A stretch of DNA of 64,000 bases from Diospyros lotus (lineage: Eukaryota > Streptophyta > Magnoliopsida > Ericales > Ebenaceae), in NCBI RefSeq assembly GCF_014633365.1, contig NC_068344.1:14275669-14339668 (forward strand), read 5' to 3'. Under the pieces are notes generated by a model. It did no database searches. It had not been told where the DNA came from and worked only from the letters and a program-made list of their open reading frames with translations. Position numbers and translations under genes: made by a program. The first letter of the stretch is position 1. Every line of letters starts with the position of its first letter. This document shows positions 29,301 to 56,200 of this stretch, piece by piece.

Positions 29301-30599
29301 CAATTACGACGATTCAATTTTTCGACATGAATTTTCGCTGCAAAAAAAACTGTTTCCTACTGGATTTTTTCCGTTGTCGTAATAATCTTCTAGAAATTTT
29401 AGTTTATATCATATAAATTTTTTTATATATCTGGGCTGCAGAGCCTTCCCTGGAATGAATTCGGTTATTCGTAAGTTTACCGAATATAACGTTAAACCCC
29501 TAATTTTCTAATGATTTCATTGACACTCCCAAACAAAAAAACACGTAAAACCATAAGAAAACCAAAATTTTGATCTACTAACTAATTTAAAGTGTATTAC
29601 AGGTTCTATTCACTTTTTTTAAATCAATTACGACGATTCGATTTTTCGGCCTGAATTTTCGCTGCACAAAAACTGTTTCTGATTTGATTTTTTCATATAT
29701 CATAATACTCGTCTAAAATTTTAGTTCGTATCATATAAATTTTTTTAGATATCTGGGCTGCAGAGCCTTCCCTGGAATCGATTCGGTTATTCGAAACTTT
29801 ACCGAAAATCACGTTAAACCCCTAAACATCGAAAGATTTGACTGACACTCCCAAACAAAAATACACTTAAAACCATAGGAAAACTAAAATTTTGATCTGC
29901 TAACTAATTTAAAGTGTACTACAGGTTCTGTTCACTTTTTTTAAATCAAATACGACGATTCGATTTTTCGGCTTGAATTTTCGCTGCACAAAAAACTCTT
30001 TCTGATTTGATTTTTTCATATGTCATAATAATCGTCTAGAAATTTTAGTTCGTATCATATAAATTTTTTTAGATATCTGGGCTGCAGAGCCTTCCCTGGA
30101 ATCGATTCGGTTATTCGAAACTTTACCGAATATAACGTTAAACCCCTAATTTTCTAAAGATTTCATTGACAATCCCAAACAAAAATACACTTAAAAATAT
30201 AGGAAAACCAAAACTTTGATCTACTAAATAATTTAAAGTGTATTCCGGGATCTGTTCACATTTTTTAAATCAATTACGACGAATCGATTTACGGCCTGAA
30301 TTTTTGTTGCACAAAAAACTGTTTCCCATTTAATTTTTTCGGATGTCATAATAATCGTCTAGAAATTTTAGTTCGTATCATATAAATTTTTTCAGATATC
30401 TGGGCAGCAAAGCCATCCCTGGAATCGATTTGGTTATTCGTAACTTTATCGAAAATCACGTTAAACCCCCAATCTTCAAAAGATTTAACTGACACTCCCA
30501 AACAAAAATACCCTTAAAACCATAGGAAAATCAAAAATTTGATCTACTAAATAATTTAAAGTGTATTCCGGGATCTGTTCACTTTTTTTAAATCAATTA

Positions 30600-33500
30600 C
30601 GACGAATCGGTTTACGGCCTAAATTTTTGTTGCACAAAAAACTGTTTCCCATTTAATTTTTTCGGATGTCATAATAATCGTCTAGAAATTTTAGTTCGTA
30701 TCATATAAATTTTTTTAGATATCTGGGCAGCAAAGCCATCCTTGGAATCGATTTGGTTATTCGTAACTTTACCGAAAATCACGTTAAACCCCCAATCTTC
30801 AAAAGATTTAACTGACACTCCCAAACAAAAATACCCATAAAACGATAGGAAAACCAAAATTTTGATCTACTAACTAATTTAAAGTGTATTACAGGTTCTG
30901 TTCACTTTTTTTTAAATCAATTACGACGATTCAATTTTTGGACGTGAATTTTCACTGCACAAAAAACTCTGTTCGATTTGATTTTTTCCGTTGTCATAAT
31001 AATCGCCTAGAAATTTTAGTTCATATCATATAAATTTTTTTATATATCTGGGCTGTAGAGCCTTCCCTGGAATGAATTCGGTCATTCGTAAGTTTACCGA
31101 ATATAACGTTAAACCCCTAATTTTTTAAAGATTTCATTGACACTCCCAAACAAAAATACACTTAAAACAATAGGAAAACCAAAATTTTGATCTACTAACT
31201 AATTTAAAGTGTATGACAGGTTCTATTCACTTTTTTAAATCAATTACGACAATTCGATTTTTCGGCCTAAATATTCGCTGCACAAAAACTGTTTCTGATT
31301 TGATTTTTTAATATGTCATAATACTCGTCTAGAAATTTTAGTTCGTATCATATAAATTTTTTTAGATATCTGGGCTGCAGCGCCTTCCCTAGAATCGATT
31401 CGGTTATTTGTAACTTTACCGAATATAACGTTAAACCGCGAATTTTCTAAAGATTTCATTGACACTCCCAAACAAAAATACACTTAAAAATATAGGAAAA
31501 CCAAAAATTTCATCTACTAAATAATTTAAAGTGTATTCCGGGATCTGTTCACTTTTTTTAAATCAATTACGACGAATCGGTTTACGGCCTGAATTTTTGT
31601 TGCACAAAGAACTGTTTCCCATTTAATTTTTTCGGATGTCATAATAATCATCTAGAAATTTTAGTTCGTATCATATAAATTTTTTTAGATATCTGGGCAG
31701 CAAAGCCATCCCTGGAATCGATTTGGTTATTCGTAACTTTACCGAAAATCACGTTAAACCCCCAATCTTCAAAAGATTCAACTGACACTCCCAAACAAAA
31801 ATACCCATAAAACGATAGGAAAACTAAAATTTTGATCTACTAACTAATTTAAAGTGTATTACAGGTTCTGTTCACTTTTTTTTAAATCAATTACAACGAT
31901 TCAATTTTTCGACGTGAATTTTCACTGCACAAAAAACTCTGTTCGATTTGATTTTTTCCGTTGTCATAATAATCGCCTAGAAATTTTAGTTCATATCATA
32001 TAAATTTTTTTATCTATCTGGGCTGTAGAGCCTTCCCTGGAATGAATTCGGTTATTCGTAAGTTTACCGAATATAACGTTAAACCCCTAATTTTTTAAAG
32101 ATTTCATTGACACTCCCAAACAAAAATACACTTAAAACAATAGGAAAACCAAAATTTTGATCTACTAACTAATTTAAAGTGTATTACAGGTTCTATTCAC
32201 TTTTTTAAATCAATTACGACGATTCGATTTTTCGGCCTGAATTTTCGCTACACAAAAACTGTTTCTGATTTGATTTTTTCATATGTCATAATACTCGTCC
32301 AGAAATTTTAGTTCGTATCATATAAATTTTTTTAGATATCTGGGCTGCAGAGCCTTCCCCGGAATCGATTCGGTTATTTGTAACTTTACCGAATATAACG
32401 TTAAACCCCTAATTTTCTAAAGATTTCATTGACACTCCCAAACAAAAATACACTTAAAAATATAGGAAAACCAAAAATTTCATCTACTAAATAATTTAAA
32501 GTATATTCCGGGATTTGTTCACTTTTTTTAAATCAATTACGACGAATCGATTTACGGCCTGAATTTTTGTTGGACAAAAAATTGTTTCCCATTTAATTTT
32601 TTCCGATGTCATAATAATCGTCTAGAAATTTTAGTTCGTATCATATAAATTTTTTTAGATATCTGCGCAGCAAAGCCATCCCTGGAATCGATTTGGTTAT
32701 TCGTAACTTTATCGAAAATCACGTTAAACCCCCAATCTTTAAAAGATTTAACTGACACTCCCAAACAAAAATACCCTTAAAACCATAGGAAAACCAAAAT
32801 TTTGATCTACTAACTAATTTAAAGTGTATTACAGGTTCGGTTCACTTTATTTTAAATCAATTACGACGATTCAATTTTTCGACGTGAATTTTCGCTGCAC
32901 AAAAATCTGTTTCCGATTTGATTTTTTCCGTTGTCATAATAATCGTCTAGAAATTTTAGTTCATATCATATAAATTTTTTTATATATCTGGGCTGCAGAG
33001 CCTTCCCTGGAATGAATTCGGTTATTCGTAAGTTTACCGAATATAACGTTAAACCCCTAATTTTCTAAAGATTTCATTGACACTCCCAAACAAAAAAACA
33101 CTTAAAACCATAGGAAAACCAAAATTTTGATCTACTAACTAATTTAAAGTGTATTACAAGTTCTATTCACTTTTTTAAATCAATTACGACGATTCGATTT
33201 TTCGGCCAGAATTTTCGCTGCACAAAAACTGTTTCTGATTTGATTTTTTCATATGTCATAATACTCGTCTAAAATTTTAGTTCGTATCATATAAATTTTT
33301 TTAGATATCTGGGCTGCAGAGCCTTCCCTGGAATCGATTCGATTATTTGTAACTTTACCCAATATAACGTTAAACCCCTAATTTTCTAAAGATTTCATTG
33401 ACACTCCCAAACAAAAAATACACTTAAAAATATAGGAAAACCAAAAATTTCATCTACTAAATAATTTAAAGTGTATTCCGGGATCTGTTCACTTTTTTTA

Positions 33501-34520
33501 AATCAATTACGATGAATCAGTTTACGGCCTGAATTTTTGTTGCACAAAAAACTGTTTCCCATTTAATTTTTTCCGATGTTATAATAATCGTCTAGAAATT
33601 TTAGTTCGTATCATATAAATGTTTTTAGATATCTGGGCAGCAAAGAAATCCCTGGAATCGATTTGGTTATTCGTAACTTTACCGAAAATCACGTTAAACC
33701 CCCAATCTTCAAAAGATTTAGCTGACACTCCCAAACAAAAATACCCTTAAAACCATAGGAAAACCAAAATTTTGATCTACTAACTAATTTAAAGTATATT
33801 ATAGGTTTTGTTCACTTTCTTTCAAATCAATTACAACGATTCAATTTTTCGACGTGAATTTTCGCTGCATAAAAAACTGTGTCCGATTTGATTTTTTCCG
33901 TTGTCATAATAATCATCTAGAAATTTTAGTTCATATCATATAAATTTTTTTATCTATCTGGGCTGTAGAGCCTTCCCTGGAATGAATTCGATTATTCGTA
34001 AGTTTACCGAATATAACGTTAAACCCCTAATTTTCTAAAGATTTCATTGACACTCGCAAACAAAAATACACTTAAAACGATAGGAAAACCATAATTTTGA
34101 TCTACTAACTAATTTAAAGTGTATTACAGGTTCTATTCACTTTTTTTAAATCAATTACGACGATTCGATTTTTCGGCCTGAATATTCGCTGCATAAAAAC
34201 TGTTTCTGATTTGATTTTTTCATATGTCATAATACTCGCCTAGAAATTTTAGTTCGTATCATATAAATTTTTTTAAATATCTAGGCTGCAGAGCCTTCCC
34301 TGGAATCGATTCGGTTATTTGTAACTTTACCGAATATAACGTTAAACCCCTAATTTTCTAAAGATTTCATTGACACTCCCAAACAAAAATACACTTAAAA
34401 ATATAGGAAAACCAAGAATTTGATCTACTAAATAATTTAAAGTGTATTCCGAGATCTGTTCACTTTTTTTAAATCAATTACGACGAATCGGTTTACGGCC
34501 TTAATTTTTGTTGCACAAAA
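30600..34520. repeat. Three-monomer higher-order repeat, ~970 bp
   Basis: The type-A marker 'tttacggcc' falls at 31581, 32551, 33521 and 34492, spaced 970, 970 and 971 bp, with types B and C in fixed order between. The next marker at 35784 is 1292 bp on, a four-monomer variant. This is a typical higher-order repeat with copy-number slips. Confidence 0.85.
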
Positions 34521-37289
34521 AACTGTTTCCGATTTTATTTTTTCCGATGTCATAATAATCGTCTAGAAATTTTAGTTCGTATCATATAAATGTTTTTAGA
34601 TATCTGGGCAACAAAGCCATCCCTGTTATCGATTTGGTTATTCGTAACTTTACCGAAAATCACGTTAAACCCCCAATCTTCAAAAGATTTAACTGACCCT
34701 CCCAAACAAAAATACCCTTAAAACCATAGGAAAACCAAAATTTTGATCTACTAACTAATTTAAAGTGTATTACAGGTTCGGTTCACTTTTTTTTAAATCA
34801 ATTACGACGATTCAATTTTTCGACGTGAATTTTCGCTGCACAAAAAACTGTTTCCGATTTGATTTTTTCCGTTGTCATAATAATCGTCTAGAAATTTTAG
34901 TTCATATCATATAAATTTTTTTATATATCTGGGCTGCAGAGCCTTCCCTGGAATGAATTCGGTTATTCGTAAGTTTACCGAATATAATGTTAAACCCCTA
35001 ATTTTCTAATGATTTCATTGACACTCCCAAACAAAAAAACACGTAAAACCATAGGAAAACCAAAATTTTGATCTACTAACTAATTTAAAGTGTATTACAG
35101 GTTCTATTCACTTTTTTTAAATCAATTACGACGATTCGATTTTTCGGCCAGAATTTTCGCTGCACAAAAACTGTTTCTGATTTGATTTTTTCATATGTCA
35201 TAATACTCGTCTAAAATTTTAGTTCGTATCATACAAATTTTTTTAGATATCTGGGCTGCAGAGCCTTCTCTGGAATCGATTCGGTTATTCGAAACTTTAC
35301 CGAAAATCACGTTAAACCCCTAAACATCGAAAGATTTGACTGACACTCCCAAACAAAAATACACTTAAAACCATAGGAAAACTAAAATTTTGATCTGCTA
35401 ACTAATTTAAAGTGTACTACAGGTTCTGTTCACTTTTTTTAAATCAAATACGACGATTCGATTTTTCGGCTTGAATTTTCGCTGCACAAAAAACTCTTTC
35501 TGATTTGATTTTTTCATGTCATAATCATCGTCTAGAAATTTTAGTTCGTATCATATAAATTTTTTTAGATATCTGGGCTGTAGAGCCTTCCCTGGAATCG
35601 ATTCGGTTATTCGAAACTTTACCGAATATAACGTTAAACCCCTAATTTTCTAAAGATTTCATTGACACTCCCAAACAAAAATACACTTAAAAATATAGGA
35701 AAACCAAAATTTTGATCTACTAAATAATTTAAAGTGTATTCCGGGATCTGTTCACTTTTTTTAAATCAATTACGACGAATCGATTTACGGCCTGAATTTT
35801 TGTTGCACAAAAAACTGTTTCCCATTTAATTTTTTCGGATGTCATAATAATCGTCTAGAAATTTTAGTTCGTATCATATAAATTTTTTCAGATATCCGGG
35901 CAGCAAAGGCATCCCTGGAATCGATTTGGTTATTCGTAACTTTATCGAAAATCACCTTAAACCCCCAATCTTCAAAAGATTTAACTAACACTCCCAAAGA
36001 AAAATACCCTTAAAACCATAGGAAAACCAAAATTTTGATCTACTAACTAATTTAAAGTGTATTACAGGTTTTGTTCACTATTTTTTAAATCAATTACGAA
36101 GATTCAATTTTTCGACATGAATTTTCGCTGCACAAAAAACTGTTTCCAATTTGATTTTTTCATATGTCGTAATACTCGTCTAGAAATTTTAGATCGTATC
36201 ATATAAATTTTATTAGATATCTGGGCTGCAGAGCCTTCCCTGGAATCGATTCGGTTATTTGTAACTTTACCAAATATAACGTTAAACCCCTAATTTTTTA
36301 AAGATTTCATTAACACTCCCAAAGAAAAATACACTTAAAAATATAGGAAAACCAAAAATTTGATCTACTAAATAATTTAAAGTGTATTCCCGGATCTGTT
36401 CACTTTTTTTAAATCAATTACGACGAATCGGTTTACGGCCTGAATTTTTGTTGCACAAAAAACTGTTTCCCATTTAATTTTTTTGGATGTCATAATAATC
36501 GCCTAGAAATTTTAGTTCGTATCATATAAATTTTTTTAGATATCTGGGCAGCAAAGCCATCCCTGGAATTGATTTGGTTATTCGTAACTTTACCGAAAAT
36601 CACGTTAAACCCCTAATCTTCAAAAGATTTAACTGACACTCCCAAACAAAAATACACTTAAAAATATAGGAAAACCAAAAATTTCATCTACTAAATAATT
36701 TAAAATGTATTTCGGGATCTGTTCACTTTTTTTAAATCAATTACGACGAATCGGTTTACGGCCTGAATTTTTGTTGCACAAAGAACTGTTTCCCATTTAA
36801 TTTTTTCGGATGTCATAATAATCATCTAGAAATTTTAGTTCGTATCATATAAATTTTTTTAGATATCTGGGCAGCAAAGCCATCCCTGGAATCGATTTGG
36901 TTATTCGTAACTTTACCGAAAATCACGTTAAACCCCCAATCTTCAAAAGATTTAACTGACACTCCCAAACAAAAATACCCTTAAAACCATAGGAAAACCA
37001 AAATTTTGATCTACTATCTAATTTAAAGTATATTATAGGTTCTGTTCACTTTTTTTTAAATCAACTACGACGATTCAATTTTTCGACGTGAATTTTATAT
37101 GCACAAAAAACTGTGTCCGATTTGATTTTTTCCAATGTCATAATAATCGTCTAGAAATTTTAGTTCATATCATATAAATTTCTTTATATATCTGGGCTAC
37201 AGAGCCTTCCCTGGAATGAATTCGGTTATTCGTAAGTTTACCGAATATAACGTTAAACCCCTAATTTTCTAAAGATTTCATTGACACTC

Positions 37290-37930
37290 CCAAACAAAAA
37301 TACACTTAAAACGATAGGAAAACCAAAATTTTGATCTACTAACTAATTTAATGTGTATTACAGGTTCTATTCACTTTTTTTAAATCAATTACGACGATTC
37401 GATTTTTCGGCCTGAATTTTCGCTGCATAAAAACTGTTTCTGATTTGATTTTTTCATATGTCATAATACTCGTCTAGAAATTTTAGTTCGTATCATATAA
37501 ATTTTTTTAGGTATCTGGGCTGCAGCGCCTTCCCTGGAATCGATTCGGTTATTTGTAACTTTACCGAATATAACGTTAAACCCCTAATTTTCTAAAGATT
37601 TCATTGACACTCCCAAACAAAAATACACTTAAAACGATAGGAAAACCAAAATTTTGATCTACTAACTAATTTAATGTGTATTACAGGTTCTATTCACTTT
37701 TTTTAAATCAATTACGACGATTCGATTTTTCGGCCTGAATTTTCGCTGCATAAAAACTGTTTCTGATTTGATTTTTTCATATGTCATAATACTCGTCTAG
37801 AAATTTTAGTTCGTATCATATAAATTTTTTTAGGTATCTGGGCTGCAGCGCCTTCCCTGGAATCGATTCGGTTATTTGTAACTTTACCGAATATAACGTT
37901 AAACCCCTAATTTTCTAAAGATTTCATTGA
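37290..37930. repeat. Recent single-monomer duplication
   Basis: Two adjacent type-C/B hybrid monomers are near-identical with an offset of about 322 bp. They share the rare variants 'actaatttaatgtgtattacagg', 'ttaggtatctgggctgcagcgcc' and 'cataaaaactg'. Confidence 0.8.
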
Positions 37931-38819
37931 CACTCCCAAACAAAAATACACTTAAAACCATAGGAAAACCAAAATTTTGATCTACTAACTAATTGAAAGT
38001 GTATTACAGGTTCTATTCACTTTTTTTAAATCAATTACGACGATTCGATTTTTCAGCCTGAATTTTGGCTGCATAAAAACTGTTTCTGATTTGATTTTTT
38101 CGTATGTCATAATACTCGTCTAGAAATTTTAGTTCGTATCATATAAATTTTTTTAGATATCTAGGCTGTAGAGCCTTCCCTGGAATCGATTCAGTTATTT
38201 GTAAGTTTACCGAATATAACGTTAAACCCCTAATTTTCTAAAGATTTCATTGACACTCCCAAACAAAAATACACTTAAAAATATAGGAAAACCAAGAATT
38301 TGATCTACTAAATAATTTAAAGTGTATTCCGGGATCTGTTTACTTTTTTTAAATCAATTACGACGAATCGGTTTACGGCCTGAATTTTTGTTGCACAAAA
38401 AACTGTTTCCGATTTAATTTTTTCCGATGTCATAATAGTCGTCTAGAAATTTTGGTTCGTATCATATAAATTTTTTTAGATATCTGCGCAGCAAAGCCAT
38501 CCCTGGAATCTATTTGGTTATTCGTAACTTTACCGAAAATCACGTTAAACCCCCAATCTTTAAAAGATTTAACTGACACTCCCAAACAAAAATACCCTTA
38601 AACCATAGGAAAACCAAAATTTTGATCTACTAACTAATTTAAAGTGTATTACAGGTTCGGTTCACTTTTTTTTAAATCAATTACGACGATTCAATTTTTC
38701 GACGTGAATTTTCGCTGCACAAAAAACTATTTCCGATTTGATTTTTTCCGTTGTCATAATAATCGTCTAGAAATTTTAGTTCATATCATATAAATTTTTT
38801 TATATATCTGGGCTGCAGA

Positions 38820-38824
38820 GCCTT
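38820..38824. repeat. Target site duplication GCCTT, left copy
   Basis: Part of the satellite landmark 'gagccttccctgg', repeated exactly at 47243-47247. Removing the element and one copy restores an uninterrupted monomer. Confidence 0.97.
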
Positions 38825-39027
38825 TGATTAGTGATCAATTTTGTAAAAATTTTATTATAATTTCACCCTTATTTTGATCTTAAAATAGTTTAAATTGAAT
38901 ATTATTATGCATTTTGTGATTTTGTGCATGTTTAAAATATTAATATAAAAATATATATAAAATATATAAAATATAAAAAAAAATAAATATAATATATATA
39001 ATAATATAATAATATAAAAATATGGAA

Positions 39028-39142
39028 AGCCCAGGCCCAAGCCCAACACAAGGAAGGCCCAAGCCCAAGCCCAACACAAGGAAGGTTCAAGCCCAAGCCC
39101 AACACAAGCAAGGCCCAAGCCCAAAAATATGAAAAGCCCAAG
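39028..39142. repeat. GCCCAAGCCCAACACAAG short tandem repeats
   Basis: Three to four imperfect units of about 30 bp. In the other LTR (from 45810) the same tract differs by an extra 'ctagt' variant, one of the few LTR differences. Confidence 0.8.
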
Positions 39143-39155
39143 TCTCACAAATTGA

Positions 39156-39270
39156 TGACATCATCGCTTACATCATTGGTTGGAGTGACATCATCGCTTA
39201 CATCATGGGTTGGAGTGACATCATCGCTTACATCATGAGTTGGAATTACATCATCGCTTACATCATTAAT
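39156..39270. repeat. Four 30 bp tandem repeats upstream of the TATA box (5' LTR)
   Basis: TGACATCATCGCTTACATCA begins at 39156, 39186 and 39216, with a variant (TTACATC...) at 39246; the spacing is exactly 30 bp. They lie 60-170 bp upstream of the TATA box, where enhancer repeats are expected. The copy in the other LTR is at 45939-46053. Confidence 0.85.
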
Positions 39271-39328
39271 TAGATATTTTGTATTATTAAATTATATAAT
39301 TGAATAGTTTCCATTACATTTTCTAGCC

Positions 39329-39337
39329 TATAAATAG
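39329..39337 (+). promoter_or_regulatory. TATA box of insertion B 5' LTR
   Basis: TATAAATAG, a near-ideal plant TATA box about 505 bp into the LTR and just downstream of the 30 bp repeats. Transcription should begin about 30 bp on, near 39360. Confidence 0.7.
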
Positions 39338-39510
39338 AGCACTTAGGGTGCATTTGTAAGAATTGGATTTTCTTATAATGAAAGTATAATTGTGATCTTT
39401 AGATTTCTCTCTTAAATTTTCAACTTTAGTTTCTATATAGTTTTGTTCTTAGAATTTCTCTCTTAAATCTTTAACCTTTGTTTCCATATAGTTGTATTAT
39501 GTTATTCATA

Positions 39511-39690
39511 TTGTCTTTTTATTATATACTGCCTATATGGTCGGTTCAAAATAGTCTTTCAATTATTGTCTTTCAATTACATACCGCCTATATGGTCGGT
39601 TAAAAATTAGTCTTTCAATTATTGTCTTTTCATTATATATCGCCTATATGGTCGATTAAAAAATAGTCTTTTAAATACTGTCTTTTAATT
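39511..39690. repeat. Three-copy ~55 bp repeat in the 5' LTR
   Basis: 'gcctatatggtcggtt' occurs at 39531, 39586 and 39642 (the last with one change), each followed by 'aatagtctttcaattattgtc'-type sequence. It is repeated in the 3' LTR at about 46294-46475. Confidence 0.8.
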
Positions 39691-40464
39691 CTCGTTATTT
39701 AAATTCCTGCCAATTTATTTTAAAATGAAGATGAGTAGCTAAATCCATTCTTGGGTTAAGGCAAGGACAGTGTCCAACGCCAATGATTTCCAAAGAAAGC
39801 TGCGCTTAAAATATGTAATATTAATCTGATTTAATTTGAGCAGTGTGCGTTGTATCTTTAAGTTTGGATTAGAGCATAAGCCTAACTTAGAATTTTCATG
39901 CCACGTATGGAGATTGCTAGATCTGGAAACGTTTTCATACCCAAGCCTAAATGATTAATCTATATCTATAAATTTTGTCTATGGAATATAGTTCAATTTA
40001 TGGTAATTGCTTAACTTAGAATTTCCATGCCATGTATGGATATTGCTTAAACAAGAATTACCATTATCTTGAACTAAATTTACTAACAGAGCTGTAAAAC
40101 TTAATTCAGATGAATATTGCTGACCTTTTCTATCAAATTGGGAATTAATTGGTTTTGACACTGAAATTATCTTGACCCAAGCTACTTAAATTCAGTATTA
40201 GTTTAGCTTTAATTATTGTCTTTAGATCATCTTAATTACCTCCTAAACTCAAATATTTTATGATTTTTACTTTCAACCATAAATAATCTCCATGTGAACC
40301 GACTCGGACTCACCGAAATATAAATTTAAAATTGTACTACATGCACACTCGCACACTGGCGAGTATAATCGCCCTACACCTGCTTTAATAAGAGGATTGA
40401 CGTTAGATGAATTTGGTTGTAGTTTTGATAAATAAATGTGCAGGGTAGTGTAGCAGTCAGTTTT

Positions 40465-40482
40465 TGGCGCCGTTGCCGGGGA
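40465..40482 (+). other. Primer-binding site (tRNA-Asp) of insertion B
   Basis: TGGCGCCGTTGCCGGGGA, complementary to the 3' end of plant tRNA-Asp, five bases after the LTR end. This primer is characteristic of Athila and some Tat-group elements. Confidence 0.95.
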
Positions 40483-42182: not shown

Positions 42183-42256
42183 AGACCTGTATCTGCATGA
42201 GGCAAGCCACACTTCTTTGAGCTCAGTCTTCTCTCATTTGTGTTGTTCTCCGATCA

Positions 42257-42259
42257 GGT
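42257..42259 (+). other. Candidate 5' splice site (CAG|GTA)
   Basis: Exon end ...GATCAG, then intron start GTACTC. With the acceptor at 43036 it would remove a 779 nt intron containing the whole cysteine-rich gene, leaving the LOG ATG as first AUG candidate. Predicted from motif only. Confidence 0.35.
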
Positions 42260-42461
42260 ACTCTCGTTCCTTTTGTAAGATTCATAATTTTGTTTTATTT
42301 CTCTTTTACTATAGTTCTGTTTTAAAAAAATGGATCTTCAGCTCTTGAAAATTCGCAAGTACTATCCATCTCTCCCACAAAATGATTTAAGAAAGATTTA
42401 TGCCACTAGGTGTGAAAGACTTCGAATGTTGATGTATAAAAATATCCCTGAGGATATTCGC

Positions 42462-42464
42462 TAG
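42462..42464 (+). other. In-frame TAG in the cysteine-rich gene
   Basis: 'gatattcgc TAG ttaattgaa'. Sequence on both sides stays open and continues the same helical segment, so this looks like a single nonsense change rather than a true end. Confidence 0.8.
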
Positions 42465-42675
42465 TTAATTGAAGCAAAAGTTCGATTTCTTGGCGAAACC
42501 TCACCTTGTTTTAAGCATTTTCCAGGATTGGGAAAGAGTAGTTTTTCGAAAAAAAGAAGAGCGAAAAGATTAAATGGTTGTCACAAATGTGCTCGATGGA
42601 CTTGTAACACACGATGCAAATCTGTGGGGTTTACTTCCATAAATCGAGATGATAAAATTTGTTTCATAAAGGATG

Positions 42676-42725
42676 GGCTGAGTAAGGAGTCTTTGGATGA
42701 TATCCGATTGACTCTTGAGACGCAT
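42676..42725 (+). repeat. Hairpin motif copy 1 (within the cysteine-rich gene)
   Basis: 'ggctgagtaaggagt' ... 'gactcttgagacgcat'. GAGTC (42687-42691) can pair with GACTC (42710-42714), and GGAT (42695-42698) with ATCC (42702-42705) inside. Copies 2 and 3 keep the outer words but have a shorter loop. Confidence 0.7.
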
Positions 42726-43030
42726 CCGTGTGGAATAGTGCAGCGAGAAATTCTTGCTTTATGGACCCAATTTAGAAGTGACCATCAACGCTATAGTCTT
42801 GGGAATCTGACTATAATTGACCCTGTTTGCCAATCTATAAGAAAATTGGATGGGAAGCCTATCCCCGCTTCATAGAAGGTGTTTAAGCCGTTTCTGGACG
42901 TAAAACCAGAGGAAGATGTGAGCCACAATCACAACTACTTGTATATACGCATGATTTTTGTTTATGTTTATTTATTGTTGAATTTCTATGTAGTTACTTT
43001 TGATTGCCAAACCTCTTTAACCAGTTCTAC

Positions 43031-43036
43031 TTTCAG
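43031..43036 (+). other. Candidate 3' splice site before the LOG start
   Basis: 'ctttaaccagttctactttcag|ggc': pyrimidine-rich tract and TTTCAG, 24 bp before the LOG ATG at 43061, with a TTAAC branch-like sequence upstream. Confidence 0.4.
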
Positions 43037-43060: not shown

Positions 43061-43720
43061 ATGGAAGGCCAGCCAGTTCGTCGAATCAATACCATATGTG
43101 TACTATGTGGCTCTCAACCTGGGAGCGATATTTGTTACACACTTGCAGCAAGCGAACTTGGCATAAAATTGGGAGAGAGAAAAATTAATTTTGTCTATGG
43201 AGGGGGAAGTCGTGGATTGAATGGATGTGTTTCACAGGCTGCACATCTTGGGCAATCATATGTGGTAGGTATTATGCCAATCCCTTTGGCTGATCCACAG
43301 ATTTCCGGGTACACACGAGGTCAACTTATAAGAACGACTTCTATGTCTGAGCGCATGGCTTGTAAGATTTATCAGTCAGACGCCTTCATTGCTTTGCCAG
43401 GAGGTTTTGGTACACTTGAAGAAATCTTTTGTATAATCTCCTGGGCCAAGAGCAATCTCCATACCAAACCCATTGGACTTTTAAATATTAACCATTTTTT
43501 TGATGGGTTGCTCTCTTTTCTTGATCAGGCTGTGGAACAAAAGTTCATTTCTCTTTCTGCAAGAAATATTCTCATTTTCGCATCCACCATTGAGGAGTTA
43601 CTAGAGAAATTACACACTTATGTTCCACAGCATGATCCTTACGAGCCTCGGATAGACTGGTCTAAGGTAATTGGAAGCAAGCGCAAAAGGGGTCCGATTA
43701 ATTTAGATTTATCCCTCTAA
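43061..43720 (+). CDS. LOG-like: LOG-type cytokinin riboside 5'-monophosphate phosphoribohydrolase carried by a retrotransposon
   Basis: 219 codons, intact, from ATG 43061 to TAA 43720. LOG enzymes release active cytokinin base from its nucleotide, splitting off ribose 5-phosphate, in cytosol and nucleus. Visible family signatures: VLCGSQPG at 14-21 (phosphate-binding start of the Rossmann fold), VYGGGSRGLNG at 45-55, and PGGFGTLEE at 113-121, the diagnostic PGGxGTxxE with catalytic Glu121. Arg98 in SERMACK is the conserved catalytic Arg; the next residue is Met where plant LOGs usually have Lys. Then SWAK, KPIGLLN and YVPQHDP follow as in plant LOGs, and length is normal (about 210-220). Host LOG genes have several introns; this one has none, so it was captured through RNA. 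The tail adds KRKR (207-210) and LDLSL (215-219), an EAR-type LxLxL motif. Enzymatic activity is likely but unproven. Confidence 0.92.
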   Translation: MEGQPVRRINTICVLCGSQPGSDICYTLAASELGIKLGERKINFVYGGGSRGLNGCVSQAAHLGQSYVVGIMPIPLADPQISGYTRGQLIRTTSMSERMACKIYQSDAFIALPGGFGTLEEIFCIISWAKSNLHTKPIGLLNINHFFDGLLSFLDQAVEQKFISLSARNILIFASTIEELLEKLHTYVPQHDPYEPRIDWSKVIGSKRKRGPINLDLSL

Positions 43721-43726
43721 GGAGAG

Positions 43727-43811
43727 CAAGTCTATGATAACATGGCTGAGTAAGGAGTACTTTTCTGTACTCTTGAGACGCATCTGTTTATTTTGACTTG
43801 CATGAATTTAT
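43727..43811 (+). repeat. Hairpin motif copy 2 (after the LOG stop)
   Basis: 'caagtctatgataacatggctgagtaaggagtac' with perfect stem GAGTAC (43755-43760) / GTACTC (43767-43772), then 'ttgagacgcat' and 'gacttgcatgaattt'. Starts seven bases after the LOG stop codon. Repeated 124 bp downstream. Confidence 0.85.
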
Positions 43812-43850
43812 TTTATGTTTTGTTTTAAAAAATTATGGAATGTTGTTAGG

Positions 43851-43936
43851 CAAGTCTATGATAAGATGGCTGAGTAAGGAGTACTTTTTGTACTCTTGAG
43901 ACGCATTTCTTTATTATATGACTTGCATGAATTTTT
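43851..43936 (+). repeat. Hairpin motif copy 3
   Basis: 'caagtctatgataagatggctgagtaaggagtac', stem GAGTAC (43879-43884) / GTACTC (43890-43895) with a five-T loop, then 'ttgagacgcat' and 'gacttgcatgaattt'. Nearly identical to copy 2 in an 85 bp unit. Confidence 0.85.
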
Positions 43937-44090
43937 CTTATTTCAGTGTGAAAAAAAATAAAAATAAAATATAAAAAAATATATGTAGAGTATTCTCACT
44001 TGTTTGTTGAAGATTTAGCAGTTCACAATAAACTTACAGACTCGTGGAGTTACAGGTATTCCTAACAACCCTATTTTATTACTGCAATTC

Positions 44091-45595: not shown

Positions 45596-45608
45596 AAGTT
45601 GGGGGGTG
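45596..45608 (+). other. Polypurine tract of insertion B
   Basis: AAGTTGGGGGGTG immediately before the 3' LTR start TGATTAG at 45609. This is the form usual in Athila/Tat-group elements. Confidence 0.93.
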
Positions 45609-47242
45609 TGATTAGTGATCAATTTTGTAAAAATTTTATTATAATTTCACCCTTATTTTGATCTTAAAATAGTTTAAATTGAATATTATTATGCATTTTG
45701 TGATTTTGTGCATGTTTAAAATATTAATATAAAAATATATATAAAATATATAAAATATAAAAAAAATAAATATAATATATATAATAATATAATAATATAA
45801 AAATATGGAAAGCCCAAGCCCAAGCCCAACACTAGTAAGGCCCAAGCCCAAGCCCAACACAAGGAAGGTTCAAGCCCAAGCCCAACACAAGCAAGGCCCA
45901 AGCCCAAAAATATGAAAAGCCCAAGTCTCACAAATTGATGACATCATCGCTTACATCATTGGTTGGAGTGACATCATCGCTTACATCATGGGTTGGAGTG
46001 ACATCATCGCTTACATCATGAGTTGGAATTACATCATCGCTTACATCATTAATTAGATATTTTGTATTATTAAATTATATAATTGAATAGTTTCCATTAC
46101 ATTTTCTAGCCTATAAATAGAGCACTTAGGGTGCATTTGTAAGGATTGGATTTTCTTATAATGAAAGTATAATTGTGATCTTTAGATTTCTCTCTTAAAT
46201 TTTCAACTTTAGTTTTTATATAGTTTTGTTCTTAGAATTTCTCTCTTAAATCTTTAACCTTTGTTTCCATATAGTTGTATTATGTTATTCATATTGTCTT
46301 TTTATTATATACCGCCTATATGGTCGGTTCAAAATAGTCTTTCAATTATTGTCTTTCAATTACATACCGCCTATATGGTCGGTTAAAAAATAGTCTTTCA
46401 ATTATTGTCTTTTCATTATATATCGCCTATATGGTCGGTTAAAAAATAGTCTTTTAAATACTGTCTTTTAATTCTCGTTATTTAAATTCCTGCCAATTTA
46501 TTTTAAAATGAAGATGAGTAGCTAAATCCATTCTTGGGTTAAGGCAAGGACAGTGTCCAACGCCAATGATTCCCAAAGAAAGCTGCGCTTAAAATATGTA
46601 ATATTAATCTGATTTAATTTGAGCAGTGTGCGTTGTATCTTTAAGTTTGGATTAGAGCATAAGCCTAACTTAGAATTTTCATGCCACGTATGGAGATTGC
46701 TAGATCTGGAAACGTTTTCATACCCAAGCCTAAATGATTAATCTATATCTATAAATTCTGTCTATGGAATATAGTTCAATTTATGGTAATTGCTTAACTT
46801 AGAATTTCCATGCCATGTATGGATATTGCTTAAACAAGAATTACCATTATCTTGAACTAAATTTACTAACAGAGCTGTAAAACTTAATTCAAATGAATAT
46901 TGCTGACCTTTTCTATCAAATTGGGAATTAATTGGTTTTGACACTGAAATTATCTTGACCCAAGCTACTTAAATTCAGTATTAGTTTAGCTTTAATTATT
47001 GTCTTTAGATCATCTTAATTACCTCCTAAACTCAAATATTTTATGATTTTTACTTTCAACCATAAATAATCTCCATGTGAACCGACTCGGACTCACCGAA
47101 ATATAAATTTAAAATTGTACTACATGCACACTCGCACACTGGCGAGTATAATCGCCCTACACCTGCTTTAATAAGAGGATTGACGTTAGATGAATTTGGT
47201 TGTAGTTTTGATAAATAAATGTGCAGGGTAGTGTAGCAGTCA
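45609..47242 (+). repeat. 3' LTR of insertion B
   Basis: 1634 bp copy of 38825-40459 with about a dozen differences by eye and one A-run length change. It contains the same 30 bp repeats (45939-46053), TATA box (46112-46120) and 55 bp repeats (about 46294-46475). Confidence 0.95.
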
Positions 47243-50200
47243 GCCTTCCATGGAATGAATTCGGTTATTCGTAAGTTTACCGAATATAACGTTAAACCCC
47301 TAATTTTCTAAAGATTTCATTGACACTCCCAAACAAAAAAACACGTAAAACCATAGGAAAACCAAATTTTTGATCTACTAACTAATTTAAAGTGTATTAC
47401 AGGTTCTATTCACTTTTTTTAAATCAATTACGACGATTCGATTTTTCGGCCAGAATTTTCGCTGCATAAAAACTGTTTCTGATTTGATTTTTTCATATGT
47501 CATAATACTCGTCTAAAATTTTAGTTCGTATCATATAAATTTTTTTAGATATCTGGGCTGCAGAGCCTTCCCTGGAATCGATTCGGTTATTTGTAACTTT
47601 ACCGAATATAACGTTAAACCCCTAATTTTCTAAAGATTTCATTGACACTCCCAAACAAAAATACACTTAAAAATATAGAAAACCAAAAATTTCATCTACT
47701 AAATAATTTAAAGTGTATTCCCGGATCTGTTCACTTTTTTTAAATCAATTACGACGAATCGGTTTACGGCCTCAATTTTTGTTGCACAAAAAACTGTTTC
47801 CCATTTAATTTTTTCCGATGTCATAATAATCGTCTAGAAATTTTAGTTCGTATCATATAAATGTTTTTAGATATCTGGGTAGCAAAGCCATCCCTGGAAT
47901 CGATTTGGTTATTCGTAACTTTACCGAAAATCACGTTAAACCCCCAATCTTCAAAAGATTTAACTGACACTCCCAAACAAAAATACCCTTAAAACCATAG
48001 GAAAACCAAAATTTTGATCTACTAACTAATTTAAAGTATATTATAGGTTCTGTTCACTTTTGTTCAAATCAATTACGACGATTCAATTTTTCGACGTGAA
48101 TTTTCGCTGCACAAAAAACTGTGTCCGATTTGATTTTTTCCGTTGTCATAATAATCATCTAGAAATTTTAGTTCATATCATATAAATTTTTTTATCTATC
48201 TGGGCTGTAGAGCCTTCCCTGGAATGAATTCGGTTATTCGTAAGTTTACCGAATATAACGTTAAACCCCTAATTTTCTAAAGATTTCATTGACACTCGCA
48301 AACAAAAATACACTTAAAACGATAGGAAAACCATAATTTTGATCTACTAACTAATTTAAAGTGTATTACAGGTTCTATTCAATTTTTTTAAATCCATTAC
48401 GACGATTCGATTTTTTGGCCTGAATATTCGCTGCATAAAAACTGTTTCTGATTTGATTTTTTCATATGTCATAATACTCGTCTAGAAATTTTAGTTCGTA
48501 TCATATAAATTTTTTTAGATATCTAGGCTGCAAAGCCTTCCATGGAATCGATTCGGTTATTTGTAACTTTACCGAATATAACGTTCAACCCCTAATTTTC
48601 TAAAGATTTCATTGACACTCCCAAACAAAAATACACTTAAAAATATAGGAAAACCAAGAATTTGATCTACTAAATAATTTAAAGTGTATTCCGAGATCTG
48701 TTCACTTTTTTTAAATCAATTACAACGAATCGGTTTACGGCCTGAATTTTTGTTGCACAAAAAACTGTTTCCGATTTAATTTTTTCCGATGTCATAATAA
48801 TCGTTTAGAAATTTTAGTTCTTATCATATAAATGTTTTTAGATATCTGGGCAACAAAGCCATCCCTGTTATCGATGTGGTTATTCGTAACTTTACCGAAA
48901 ATCACGTTAAACCCCCAATCTTCAAAAGATTTAACTGACACTCCCAAACAAAAATACCCTTAAAACCATAGGAAAACCAAAATTTTGATCTACTAACTAA
49001 TTTAAAGTGTATTACAGGTTCGGTTCACTTTTTTTTAAATCAATTACGACGATTCAATTTTTCGACGTGAATTTTCGCTGCACAAAAAATTGTTTCCGAT
49101 TTGATTTTTTCCGTTGTCATAATAATCGTCTAGAAATTTTAGTTCATATCATATAAATTTTTTTATATATCTGGGCTGCAGAGCCTTCCCTGGAATGAAT
49201 TCGGTTATTCGTAAGTTTATCGAATATAACGTTAAACCCCTAATTTTCTAATGATTCATTGACACTCCCAAACAAAAAAACACGTAAAACCATAGGCAAA
49301 CCAAAATTTTGATCTACTAACTAATTTAAAGTGTATTACAGGTTCTATTCACTTTTTTTAAATCAATTACAACGATTCAATTTTTCGGCCAGAATTTTCG
49401 CTGCACAAAAACTGTTTCTGATTTGATTTTTTCATATGTCATAATACTCGTCTAAAATTTTAGTTCGTATCATATAAATTTATTTAGATATCTGGGCTGC
49501 AGAGCCTTCCCTGGAATCGCTTCGGTTAATCGAAACTTTACCGAAAATCACGTTAAACCCCTAAACATCGAAAGATTTCACTGACACTCCCAAACAAAAA
49601 TACACTTAAAACCATAGGAAAACTAAAATTTTGATCTGCTAACTAATTTAAAGTGTACTACAGGTTCTGTTCACTTTTTTTAAATCAAATACGACGATTC
49701 GATTTTTCGGCTTGAATTTTCGCTGCACAAAAAACTGTTTCCGATTTGATTTTTTCATATGTGATAATAATCGTCTAGAAATTTTAGTTCGTATCATATA
49801 AATTTTTTTAGATATCTGGGCTACAGAGCCTTCCCTGGAATCGATTCGGTTATTCGAAACTTTACCGAATATAACGTTAAACCCCTAATTTTCTAAAGAT
49901 TTCATTGACACTCCCAAACAAAAATACACTTAAAAATATAGGAAAACCAAAACTTTGATCTACTAAATAATTTAAAGTGTATTCCGGGATCTGTTCACTT
50001 TTTTTAAATAAATTACGACGAATCGATTTACGGCCTGAATTTTTGTTGCACAAAAAACTGTTTCCCATTTAATTTTTTCGGATGTCATAATAATCGTCTA
50101 GAAATTTTAGTTCGTATCATATAAATTTTTTCCGATATCTGGGCAGCAAAGCCATCCCTGGAATCGATTTGGTTATTCGTAACTTTACCGAAAATCACGT

Positions 50201-53200
50201 TAAACCCCAATCTTCAAAAGATTTAACTGACACTCCCAAACAAAAATACCCTTAAAACCATAGGAAAACCAAAATTTTGATCTACTAACTAATTTAAAGT
50301 ATATTATAGGTTCTGTTCACTTTTGTTCAAATCAATTACGACGATTCAATTTTTCGACGTGAATTTTCGCTGCACAAAAAACTGTGTCCGATTTGATTTT
50401 TTCCGTTGTCATAATAATCATCTAGAAATTTTAGTTCCTATCATATAAATTTTTTTATCTATCTGGGCTGTAGAGCCTTCCCTGGAATGAATTCGGTTAT
50501 TCGTAAGTTTACCGAATATAACGTTAAACCCCTAATTTTCTAAAGATTTCATTGACACTCGCAAACAAAAATACACTTAAAACGATAGGAAAACCAAAAT
50601 TTTGATCTACTAACTAATTTAAAGTGTATTACAGGTTCTATTCACTTTTTTTAAATCAATTACGACGATTCGATTTTTCGGCAAGAATTTTCGCTGCACA
50701 AAAACTGTTTCTGATTTGATTTTTTCATATGTCATAATACTCGTCTAAAATTTTATTTCGTATCATATAAATTTTTTTAGATATCTGGGCTACAGAGCCT
50801 TCCCTGGAATCGCTTCGGTTAATCGAAACTTTACCGAAAATCACGTTAAACCCCTAAACATCGAAAGATTTCACTGACACTCCCAAACAAAAGTACCCTT
50901 AAAACCATAGGAAAACCAAAATTTTGATCTACTAACTAATTTAAAGTATATTATAGGTTCTGTTCACTTTTGTTCAAATCAATTACGACGATTCAATTTT
51001 TCGACGTGAATTTTCGCTGCACAAAAAACTGTGTCCGATTTGATTTTTTCCGTTGTCATAATAATCATCTAGAAATTTTAGTTCCTATCATATAAATTTT
51101 TTTATCTATCTGGGCTGTAGAGCCTTCCCTGGAATGAATTCGGTTATTCGTAAGTTTACCGAATATAACGTTAAACCCCTAATTTTCTAAAGATTTCATT
51201 GACACTCCCAAACAAAAATACACTAAAAACCATAGGAAAACCAAAATTTTGATCTACTAACTAATTTAAAGTGTATTACAGGTTCTATTCACTTTTTTAA
51301 ATCAATTACGACGATTCAATTTTTCGGCCTGAATTTTCGCTGCACAAAAACTGTTTCCAATTTGATTTTTTCATATGTCATAATACTCGTCTAGAAATTT
51401 TAGATCGTATCATATAAATTTTATTAGATATCTGGGCTGCAGAGCCTTCCCTGGAATCGATTCGGTTATTTGTAACTTTACCAAATATAACGTTAAACCC
51501 CTAATTTTTTAAAGATTTCATTAACACTCCCAAACAAAAATACACTTAAAAATATAGGAAAACCAAAAATTTGATCTACTAAATAATTTAAAGTGTATTC
51601 CAGGATCTGTTCACTTTTTTTAAATCAATTACGATGAATCGGTTTACGGCCTGAATTTTTGTTGCACAAAAAACTGTTTCCCATTTAATTTTTTCGGATG
51701 TCATAATAATCGCCTAGAAATTTTAGTTCGTATCATATAATTTTTTTTAGATATCTGGGCAGCAAAGCCATCCCTGGAATCGATTTGGTTATTTGTAACT
51801 TTACCGAAAATCACGTTAAACCCCTAATCTTCAAAAGATTTAACTGACACTCCCAAACAAAAATACCCTTAAAACCATAGGAAAATCAAAAATTTGATCT
51901 ACTAAATAATTTAAAGTGTATTCCGGGATCTGTTCACTTTTTTTAAATCAATTACGACGAATCGGTTTACGGCCTAAATTTTTGTTGCACAAAAAACTGT
52001 TTCCCATTTAATATTTTCGGATGTCATAATAATCGTCTAGAAATTTTAGTTCGTATCATATAAATTTTTTTAGATATCTGGGCAGCAAAGCCATCCCTGG
52101 AATCGATTTGGTTATTCGTAACTTTACCGAAAATCACGTTAAACCCCCAATCTTCAAAAGATTTAACTGACACTCCCAAACAAAAATACCCTTAAAACCA
52201 TAGGAAAACCAAAATTTTGATCTACTAACTAATTTAAAGTATATTATAGGTTCTGTTCACTTTTGTTCAAATCAATTACGACGATTCAATTTTTCGACGT
52301 GAATTTTCGCTGCACAAAAAACTGTGTCCGATTTGATTTTTTCCATTGTCATAATAATCGTCTAGAAATTTTAGTTCGTATCATATAAATTTTTTTAGAT
52401 ATCTGGGCAACAAAGCCATCCCTGTTATCGATTTGGTTATTCGTAACTTTACCGAAAATCACGTTAAACCCCCAATCTTCAAAAGATTTAACTGACACTC
52501 CCAAACAAAAATACCCTTAAAACCATAGGAAAACCAAAATTTTGATCTACTAACTAATTTAAAGTATATTATAGGTTCTGTTCACTTTTGTTCAAATCAA
52601 TTACGACGATTCAATTTTTTGACGTGAATTTTCGCTGCACAAAAAACTGTGTCCGATTTGATTTTTTCCATTGTCATAATAATCGTCTAGAAATTTTAGT
52701 TCGTATCATATAAATTTTTTTAGATATCTGGGCAACAAAGCCATCCCTGTTATCGATTTGGTTATTCGTAACTTTACCGAAAATCACGTTAAACCCCCAA
52801 TCTTCAAAAGATTTAACTGACACTCCCAAACAAAAATACCCTTAAAACCATAGGAAAACCAAAATTTTGATCCACTAACTAATTTAAAGTGTATTACAGG
52901 TTCGGTTCCCTTTTTTTTAAATCAATTACGACGATTCAATTTTTCGACGTGAATTTTCGCTGCACAAAAAACTGTTCCCGATTTGATTTTTTCCGTTGTC
53001 ATAATAATCGTCTAGAAATTTTAGTTCATATCATATAAATTTTTTTATATTACTGGGCTGCAGAGCCTTCCCTGGAATGAATTCGGTTATTCGTAAGTTT
53101 ACCGAATATAACGTTAAACCCCTAATTTTCTAATGATTTCATTGACACTCCCAAACAAAAAAACACGTAAAACCATAGGAAAACCAAAATTTTGATCTAC

Positions 53201-56200
53201 TAACTAATTTAAAGTGTATTACAGGTTCTATTCACTTTTTTTAAATCAATTACGATGATTCGATTTTTCGGCCAAAATTTTCGCTGCACAAAAACTGTTT
53301 CTGATTTGATTTTTTCATATGTCATAATACTCGTCTAAAATTTTAGTTCGTATCATATAAATTTTTTTAGATATCTGGGCTGCAGAGCCTTCCCTGGAAT
53401 CGATTCGGTTATTTGTAACTTTACCGAATATAACGTTAAACCCCTAATTTTCTAAAGATTTCAATGACACTCCCAAACAAAAATACACTTAAAAATATAG
53501 GAAAACCAAAAATTTGATCTACTAAATAATTTAAAGTGTATTCCAGGATCTGTTCACTTTTTCTAAATCAATTACGAGGAATCGGTTTACGGCCTGAATT
53601 TTTGTTGCACAAAAAACTGTTTCCCATTTAATTTTTTCGGATGTCATAATAATCGTCTAGAAATTTTAGTTCGTATCATATAAATTTTTTTAGATTTGTG
53701 GGCAGCAAAGCCATCCCTGGAATCGATTTGGTTATTCGTAACTTTACCGAAAATCACGTTAAACCCCCAATCTTCAAAAGATTTATCTGACACTCGCAAA
53801 CAAAATTACCCTTAAAACCATTGGAAAACCAAAATTTTGATCTACTAACTAATTTAAAGTGTATTACAGGTTTTGTTCACTTTTTTTTAAATCAATTACG
53901 ACAATTCAATTTTTCGACGTGAATTTTCGCTGCACAAAAAACTGTGTCCGATTTCATTTTTTCCGTTATCATAATAATCGTCTAGAAATTTTAGTTCATA
54001 TCATATAAATTTTTTTATATATCTGGGCTGCAGAGCCTTCCCTGGAATGAATTCGGTTATTCGTAAGTTTACCGAATATAACGTTAAACCCCTAATTTTC
54101 TAAAGATTTCGTTGACACTCCCAAACAAAAATACACTTAAAACCATAGGAAAACCAAAATTTTGATCAACTAACTAATTTAATGTGTATTACAGATTCTA
54201 TTCTCTTTTTTTAAATCAATTTCGAGGATTCGATTTTTCGGCCTGAATTTTCGCTGCACAAAAACTATTTCTGATTTGATTTTTTCATGTGTCATAATAC
54301 TCGTCTAGAAATTTTAGTTCGTATCATATAAATTTTTTTAGATATCTGGGCTGCAGAGACTTCCCTAGAATCGATTCGGTTATTTGTAACTTTACCGAAT
54401 ATAACGTTAAACCCCTAATTTTCTAAAGATTTCATTGACACTCCCAAACAAAAATACACTTAAAAATATAGGAAAACCAAAAATTTGATCTACTAAATAA
54501 TTTAAAGTGTATTTCTGGATCTTTTCACTTTTTTTAAATCATTTACGACGAATCTGTTTACGGCCTGAATTTTTGTCACACAAAAAACTATTTCCCATTT
54601 AATTTTTTCGGATGTCATAATAATCGTCTAGAAATTTTAGTTCATATCATATAAATTTTTTTAGATATCTGGGCAGCAAAGCCATCCCTGGAATCGATTT
54701 GGTTATTCGTAATTTTACCGAAAATCACGTTAAACCCCCAATCTTCAAAAGATTTAACTGACACTCCCAAACAAAAATACCCTTAAAACCATAGGAAAAC
54801 CAAAATTTTGATCTACTAACTAATTTAAAGTATATTACAGGTTCTGTTCACTTTTTTTTAAATCAATTACGACGATTCAATTTTTCGATGTGAATTTTTT
54901 CTGCACAAAAAACTGTTTCCGATTTGATTTTTTCATATGTCATAATACTCGTCTAAAAATTTTAGTAAGTATCATATAAATTTTTTTAGATATCTCGGCT
55001 GCAGAGCCTTCCCTGGAATCGATTCGGTTATTTGTAACTTTACCGAATATAACGTTAAACCCCTAATTTTCTAAAGATTTCATTGACACTCCCAAACAAA
55101 AATACACTAAAAACCATAGGAAAACCAAAATTTTGATCTACTAACTAATTTAAAGTGTATTCCGGGATCTGTTCACTTTTTCTAATCAATTACGACGATT
55201 CAATTTTTCGCCCTGAATTTTCGCTGCACAAAAACTGTTTCCAATTTGATTTTTTCATATGTCATAATACTCGTCTAGAAATTTTAGATCGTATCATATA
55301 AATTTTATTAGATATCTGGGCTGCAGAGCGTTCCCTGGAATCGATTCGGTTATTTGTAACTTTACCAAATATAACGTTAAACCCCTAATTTTCTAAAGAT
55401 TTCATTAACACTCCCAAACAAAAATACACTTAAAAATATAGGAAAACCAAAAATTTGATCTACTAAATAATTTAAAGTGTATTCCAGGATCTGTTCACTT
55501 TTTTTAAATCAATTACGATGAATCGGTTTACAGCCTGAATTTTTGTTGCACAAAAAACTGTTTCCCATTTAATTTTTTCGGATGTCATAATAATCGCCTA
55601 GAAATTTTAGTTCGTATCATATAATTTTTTTTAGATATCTGGGCAGCAAAGCCATCCCTGGAATCGATTTGGTTATTCGTAACTTTACCGAAAATCACGT
55701 TAAACCCCTAATCTTCAAAAGATTTAACTGACACTCCCAAACAAAAATACCCTTAAAACCATAGGAAAATCAAAAATTTGATCTACTAAATAATTTAAAG
55801 TGTATTCCGGGATCTGTTCACTTTTTTTAAATCAATTACGACGAATCGGTTTACGGCCTAAATTTTTGTTGCACAAAAAACTGTTTCCCATTTAATATTT
55901 TCGGATGTCATAATAATCGTCTAGAAATTTTAGTTCGTATCATATAAATTTTTTTAGATATCTGGGCAGCAAAGCCATCCCTGGAATCGATTTGGTTATT
56001 CGTAACTTTACCGAAAATCACGTTAAACCCCCAATCTTCAAAAGATTTAACTGACACTCCCAAACAAAAATACCCATAAAACGACAAGAAAACCAAAATT
56101 TTGATCTACTAACTAATTTAAAGTGTATTACAGGTTATGTTCACTTTTTTTAAAATCAATTACGACGATTCAATTTTTCGACGTGAATTTTATCTGCACA

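Follow-up and report, generated by a model that had tools for sequence, protein, structure and literature searches.

How does a full-length gene of the LONELY GUY (LOG) type come to lie inside a young LTR retrotransposon of Diospyros lotus, and does it belong to the host or to the element? Enzymes of this type activate cytokinin, and the one from rice functions in the shoot meristem. We examined the question in a 64,000-nucleotide stretch of contig NC_068344.1 (positions 14,275,669 to 14,339,668, forward strand), hereafter the window. A first-pass annotation, made from the letters of this stretch, had proposed an intact LOG gene, captured through RNA by a recent and possibly multi-copy element.

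The LOG gene and the element around it

The LOG frame starts with ATG and contains 0 stops and 0 introns. The first-pass annotation had staked its reading on the LOG profile PF03641, and a Pfam scan matched that profile at 113.6 bits (E=9.4e-33; cut-off 27). The segments VLCGS, VYGGGSRGL and PGGFGTLEE were all found in the protein, the last corresponding to the PGGxGTxxE signature of the LOG family; the arginine upstream of it, R98, is presumably the family's upstream arginine with a functional role in LOG. The signatures, standard length and uninterrupted frame described earlier were therefore upheld. In a PDB sequence search, the nearest solved structure was AtLOG3 (2a33, E=8.2e-54), and the AlphaFold model (mean pLDDT 87.2) aligned to 2a33_B with a TM score of 0.96 by target length in a fold search, the predicted fold being that of AMP-bound LOGs. 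Fold, length and PGGxGTxxE motif are common to AtLOG3, AtLOG8 and the window LOG, but the latter differs from both in sequence (44-48% identity), in being intronless, in its basic and EAR-like tail and in being borne by a transposable element.

Table 1. Coordinates of the element's features within the window
Feature	Position	Strand	Basis or remark
Target-site duplication GCCTT, left	38820..38824	.	LTR analysis
5' LTR, 1635 bp	38825..40459	+	99.33% identity to 3' LTR, K2P 0.0068
Primer binding site TGGCGCCGTTGCCGGGGA, 5 nt past LTR	40465..40482	+	LTR analysis
gag-like ORF fragment, 342 aa	40798..41826	+	Homologous to residues 345-624 of L039 gag frame
CAG/GTACTC, candidate splice donor before NABP	42255..42263	+	29/30 copies, L035, L036, L037
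NABP-like coding region, relative of carlavirus nucleic-acid-binding/cysteine-rich proteins	42330..42875	+	Pfam, copy comparison
Pyrimidine-rich tract ending CAG, candidate splice acceptor just before LOG ATG	43020..43036	+	Copy comparison
LOG-type phosphoribohydrolase ORF, 219 aa / 219 codons	43061..43720	+	ORF list, Pfam, PDB, AlphaFold
LOG C-terminal tail: basic cluster SKRKRG and terminal EAR-like LDLSL	43661..43717	+	Sequence, motif counts
Polypurine tract region AAGTTGGGGGGTG	45596..45608	+	Purine-rich run before 3' LTR
3' LTR, 1634 bp	45609..47242	+	LTR analysis
Target-site duplication GCCTT, right	47243..47247	.	LTR analysis

The LOG frame lies between the gag-like ORF and the polypurine tract, as first described, in an element with a perfect GCCTT duplication and near-identical LTRs (11 mismatches and one gap column, 99.33% identity, TG...CA ends). 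All hallmarks of an LTR retrotransposon were present, namely paired LTRs, target-site duplication, primer binding site and polypurine tract. At rates of 1.3e-8 to 4.7e-9 per site per year, the K2P distance of 0.0068 between the LTRs dates the insertion to about 0.26-0.72 million years ago. We take the letters of the primer binding site to be complementary to tRNA-Asp. According to the available text of PMC1142308, a primer binding site of the tRNA-Asp type, 5 nt after the LTR, occurs in Calypso and Diaspora, relatives of Athila, and this type and spacing are common to Athila, Calypso, Diaspora and the window element. Judged by these two features, the latter is probably an Athila-type LTR retrotransposon.

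An autonomous Ty3/Gypsy element has gag and pol domains; the copy in the window lacks pol altogether and retains just a fragment of gag. The gag-like ORF named in the first-pass annotation did show gag homology (35% identity to residues 345-624 of the open gag frame at L039, a locus discussed below; E=1.4e-39), but it is a diverged fragment in which a Pfam scan matched no gag family, and the copy is therefore non-autonomous. The element is inserted within a 323-bp satellite array. Tandem satellite of about 323 bp extends over much of the window (395-5968, 23314-38824 and 47242-63998) and could be centromeric; centromeric satellites are a frequent home of Athila elements. Elsewhere in the window (9113-13741, minus strand), two long ORFs of 642 and 888 aa resemble, by eye, another Ty3/Gypsy gag-pol element.

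Genomic copies and an NABP-like partner

Searching the 630-Mb assembly (43 contigs, the window lying on contig C7) with the window LOG gave 1,141 first-look candidates. The best 150 were scored, and each proved to hold one match, 86-100% identical to the query and covering at least 212 of its 219 residues, so the further copies that had been anticipated do exist. At least 150 LOG copies is a lower bound, because a query with the D. lotus host gene LOG1, which returned first 150 single-frame copies (46-49% identity, frames of 219-237 codons), found places outside the first 150. By hand count, 119 of the 150 best-scored places were free of stops and 31 had them, a share that favours intact copies because these places are the best-scoring ones. 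A separate query with a piece of the NABP-like region gave 905 candidates, of which 150 were scored.

This NABP-like region precedes the LOG frame. In the window it is broken by a single in-frame TAG at codon 45 (42462-42464). A Pfam scan of the piece at 42528-42872 matched PF05515 (26.0 bits, cut-off 23) and PF01623 (22.5 bits, cut-off 20.9), and the 44-codon piece ahead of the stop matched no Pfam family. A database search found 490 relatives, with identities of up to 89% among the best 120 listed, which include proteins from Populus, Acer, Xanthoceras, Rhamnella and Parasponia. Both profiles matched all 24 aligned relatives at E-values up to 0.01 (best 1.1e-8 for PF05515 and 1.7e-7 for PF01623). 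For PF01623, one relative (P0122) scored 23.3 bits against the cut-off of 20.9; the NABP of copy L035 lay above the cut-off for PF05515 and below it for PF01623 (19.6 against 20.9). The cysteine spacing C-x2-C-x4-C-x3-C was present in 111 of the 120 listed relatives. Likeness to the viral proteins was measured against the Pfam models, and an AlphaFold model of P0122 (mean pLDDT 54.9) was too poor for a fold search. The element's NABP resembles the carlavirus NABPs or cysteine-rich proteins (CRPs), for example p12 of chrysanthemum virus B (CVB), in its PF05515 and PF01623 matches, basic stretch and cysteine cluster. It differs from them in that its gene is chromosomal and belongs to a retrotransposon, and in having a long C-terminal part conserved within the transposable element family. 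An endogenous RNA virus was rejected as the source of the region because the LTR element that houses it has relatives with gag-pol and because Pfam scans of the window element's ORFs showed no further viral family. None of the IMG/VR viral contigs encoded an NABP relative, and one showed faint LOG similarity (42% over 52 residues). The NABP-like region, the EAR-like tail of the LOG protein and the many genomic copies are points that the first-pass annotation missed.

The 30 best of the 150 LOG places were fetched as subfamily 1 (L005-L034). The NABP region lay upstream of LOG in all 30, on 12 contigs (in L006 its first 27 bases had no match), and also in four of four hand-picked longer regions. 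A misassembly where the LOG gene meets the LTR element, a concern raised at first reading, is therefore very unlikely, and we regard the junction as genuine. Of the 30 subfamily-1 copies, 29 had an uninterrupted LOG frame and 22 an uninterrupted NABP frame of full length; a shorter open frame persists in L006, one of the eight with a disrupted NABP. Directly 3' of LOG in the window is a 124-bp unit in about 1.9 tandem copies (43726..43956, plus strand). By eye, it shares 15-16-nt words with a part of the NABP frame near 42673-42731 and may fold into a short hairpin. The 124-bp stretch was almost complete in 29 of the 30 fetched copies and partial in L034.

Upstream of NABP and LOG, copy L035 has a 1,143-codon open frame for pol that includes reverse transcriptase, RNase H and integrase. 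The adjoining locus L039 encodes gag (PF03732, E=1.9e-19), in the frame of pol by coordinates, and the LTRs of this L035/L039 copy (1,990 bp, one mismatch and one gap, 99.9% identical) are accompanied by the duplication GGCTT. A long open pol frame was also found in L036; L037 is a second pol-less copy (LTRs 97.8% identical, duplication GCAGA), and L038 is degraded. The window-type gag-like fragment was present upstream in 17 of the 30 subfamily-1 copies. Two of the other 13 (L016 and L020) were examined further upstream, through L040 and L041, and both matched pol. From the pol-bearing relatives and the shared gag-like fragment, it follows that the window element is a pol-less derivative. The LOG family is thus multi-copy and has recently transposed in this genome, confirming that a full-length, intronless LOG sits in a mobile, multi-copy LTR element. 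At G000:C14:18448121-18471026, four LOG copies follow one another at a spacing of 7.2-7.5 kb, suggesting a tandem array of elements.

The reading we prefer, with a probability of roughly 60%, is that NABP and LOG form a two-gene accessory module of an Athila-type Ty3/Gypsy lineage, in the env-like position between pol and the 3' LTR. Outside D. lotus, NABP and LOG relatives come from shared genera and from contigs of equal size (8723, 4511 and 2128), which is suggestive of the same linkage, some such equalities being expected by chance.

Ancestry, selective constraint and the C-terminal tail

We built a careful LOG tree of 54 proteins, hand-picked from 240 listed proteins and other loci and rooted on one Agrobacterium LOG. 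It placed 33 element-type LOGs in one clade (support 98/97) and 20 host-type LOGs, including D. lotus LOG1 (P0356) and a gymnosperm protein, in another (100/97). The host sample consisted of the 120 best matches of a LOG3/LOG8 profile and so covers LOG1/3/4- and LOG8-like proteins only; two proteins from the list of LOG relatives (P0074 and P0119) were assigned to the host group following their placement in a quick tree. Named members of the element-type clade come from Populus, Xanthoceras, Diplodiscus, Reevesia, Rehmannia, Primulina and Diospyros. The clade, whose members are called element-type by their position in it, has both asterid and rosid members. Among five LOG-like proteins of Xanthoceras (P0005, P0007, P0008, P0069 and P0105), three have a partly duplicated LOG domain.

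Recent acquisition of a host LOG of this species by way of its mRNA, as first proposed, would fit an intronless, full-length ORF in a young element, but is so improbable that we discard it: the tree separates the window LOG from the sampled host LOGs, D. lotus LOG1 included, a constraint uniting the window group with host LOG1 is rejected (AU p=8.5e-6), identity to LOG1 is just 47%, the gag-pol-bearing copies of this genome carry the same LOG type, and rosid as well as asterid species hold relatives. The intronless state does fit capture through RNA, but that capture would have been old rather than recent. The window LOG is an inherited gene of the Athila-type lineage, also present in gag-pol-bearing copies of this genome.

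A comparison of dN/dS between retrotransposon copies had been proposed at the outset, and its outcome bears on whether LOG and NABP are inert cargo that the element has multiplied. Between the window LOG and that of L035, the NG86 dN/dS was 0.30 (28 synonymous and 32 nonsynonymous differences; Fisher p=1.5e-5), and it was 0.30 and 0.30 against L036 and L037. For NABP, L007 gave 0.15 against L035 (Fisher p=1.3e-10) and 0.18 and 0.17 against L036 and L037. The comparison of L035 with L037 gave 0.21 for LOG and 0.09 for NABP, and pairs with the degraded L038 gave 0.33-0.45 and 0.24-0.32, respectively. At the nucleotide level, the window and L035 are 91% identical in the LOG coding region and 89.6% in that of NABP, 78% in the 3' region and 69-78% in the aligned pieces of the LTRs. 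Both LOG and NABP are therefore under protein-level constraint between subfamilies. Within subfamily 1, where the pooled pairs are not independent, the 29 LOG copies gave a ratio of 0.37, and the 14 open NABP copies with exactly the window's first ten bases gave 0.35. Pooled pN/pS for LOG was 0.225 in the 17 window-type, pol-less-type copies and 0.73, from few differences, in the 13 other subfamily-1 copies; because of this last value, neutrality is possible for those 13, which look near neutral in LOG. Passive carriage of both genes would agree with that value, with the stops in 31 of the 150 best-scored LOG places and with the disrupted NABP frame in 8 of 30 copies. It sits poorly with the low ratios between subfamilies and in the pol-less-type copies, and with the retention of the active-site motif PGG.GT.E[EQ] in 110 of 120 listed LOG relatives and of the NABP cysteine spacing in its 111 of 120, both sets being protein-search results that favour intact frames. 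We consider it very unlikely.

The C-terminal tail distinguishes the element-type protein from host LOGs. The short motif LxLxL lies within the last 12 residues of 91 of the 120 listed LOG relatives against 0 of 120 host-type LOGs, and a basic cluster within the last 25 residues of 106 against 1; the two occur together in 88 against 0. Some of the 29 relatives without LxLxL are fragments or host-type LOGs. All 30 subfamily-1 copies and L035-L037 end in LxLxL, and L038 ends in LDLSV. EAR repressors are defined by LxLxL and DLNxxP in the available text of PMC6479872, and the LDLSL C-terminus of the window LOG has the first of these forms. Pathogen effectors reported to interact with TOPLESS include HaRxL21 and Jsi1. 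By its motifs, the tail may be a nuclear, TOPLESS-recruiting addition to LOG.

The tail also bears on whether the element-type clade could be a host LOG subfamily, an unsampled paralogue that elements captured repeatedly. Several members are named LOGL10 by NCBI, the host sample is restricted as described above, and two Xanthoceras members (P0069 and P0105), which branch first in the clade, have no EAR tail. Set against this, a single clade, a common tail and the linkage to NABP in this genome favour one origin in one element lineage, and repeated capture of a host paralogue is improbable. Somewhat less improbable, although still unlikely, is a repurposed LOG, in which a nuclear, EAR-tailed Rossmann scaffold would recruit TOPLESS and hormone chemistry would be secondary or lost. 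The joint occurrence of basic cluster and LxLxL in relatives and its absence from host-type LOGs speak for this, as does the motif in all 30 subfamily-1 copies, but the catalytic motif is kept in most relatives and the modelled fold matches AMP-bound LOGs.

Known elements and a proposed role for the two genes

LOG-like domains in plant Gypsy elements are already known; the viral-type partner, the tail and the amplification appear, in the literature searched, to be new. Athila-like elements with LOGL4-like extra ORFs were reportedly described by Steinbauerova et al. (2011, Genetica). The available text of PMC9289625 reports, in passing and citing that study, a YgdH (LOG-family) domain in Ty3/Gypsy consensus sequences of Citrus sinensis, C. 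clementina and Populus trichocarpa. These elements and the D. lotus family have a LOG-family extra ORF in common; relative to what that text describes, D. lotus adds the NABP partner, the EAR-like tail and the tests of selection. The text of PMC9289625 makes no mention of nucleic acid binding or carlavirus, and the main texts of PMC7264820 and PMC6317226 contain none of YgdH, LONELY, lysine decarboxylase, nucleic acid binding and carlavirus. A literature search of titles and abstract openings, with few subscription papers, found neither an NABP-like gene or EAR tail in a plant retrotransposon nor amplification of a LOG-bearing family. Athila, Calypso and Diaspora have an env-like ORF where the D. 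lotus family has NABP and LOG instead. Orchid Gypsy elements with an RNA demethylase ORF likewise carry an enzymatic accessory gene, of a domain type that also occurs in plant RNA viruses (PMC9289625, available text), but the enzyme and the element lineage are different.

In the same text, the extra ORFs of plant LTR elements are mostly without known domains. The LOG ORF has a testable predicted enzymatic activity on a central hormone and at least 150 copies in one genome. In D. lotus its linked neighbour is kin to a viral protein whose part in pathogenicity has been studied in depth, and the LOG protein itself has a conserved motif for which a host target is named. With these properties, direct tests become possible of the reasons for which retrotransposons retain accessory genes.

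Expression of the module could involve splicing. An acceptor-like TTTCAG was found in 29 of the 30 fetched copies, and the donor- and acceptor-like sites have counterparts in L035-L037 despite differing surrounding sequence. Splicing from the candidate donor to the candidate acceptor would excise NABP and make LOG the first ORF, and the conservation of these sites hints that both proteins could be translated from spliced 3' RNAs. The 3' env-like ORF of Bagy2 is expressed by splicing (PMC7264820, available text). Once made, LOG would release active cytokinin from its nucleotides, and the cytokinin could push expressing cells to division or a meristem-like state, and so into lineages that reach the gametes, while the tail would bring the protein to the nucleus and to TOPLESS-type co-repressors. 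NABP might act like its viral relatives, in silencing suppression, transcriptional activation or both: in the available text of PMC12172455, viral CRPs suppress silencing and CVB p12 is a transcription factor that induces hyperplasia. The window copy, with no pol, part of gag, LOG intact and NABP broken, would move solely with help in trans.

Taken together, these points suggest that the accessory module may promote proliferation and counter silencing in the cells that transmit the element, and the retrotransposon lineage may manipulate its plant host through the two genes. The broader proposal, in which a eudicot-wide lineage uses a two-protein cassette, the NABP relative of a viral silencing suppressor and transcription factor together with a nuclear, EAR-tailed LOG, to keep host cell lineages with active copies of the element dividing and its own transcripts unsilenced, much as a virus or gall-forming pathogen does, is tentative, and we hold it with less than even confidence. 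If true, it would amount to a transposable element acting on hormone signalling, and the element might have given the NABP gene to carlaviruses or received it from them.

One element-type LOG (P0001) is annotated in D. lotus as the host gene LOGL10. Counts of LOG genes in plants may therefore be too high where copies in elements have been annotated as belonging to the host.
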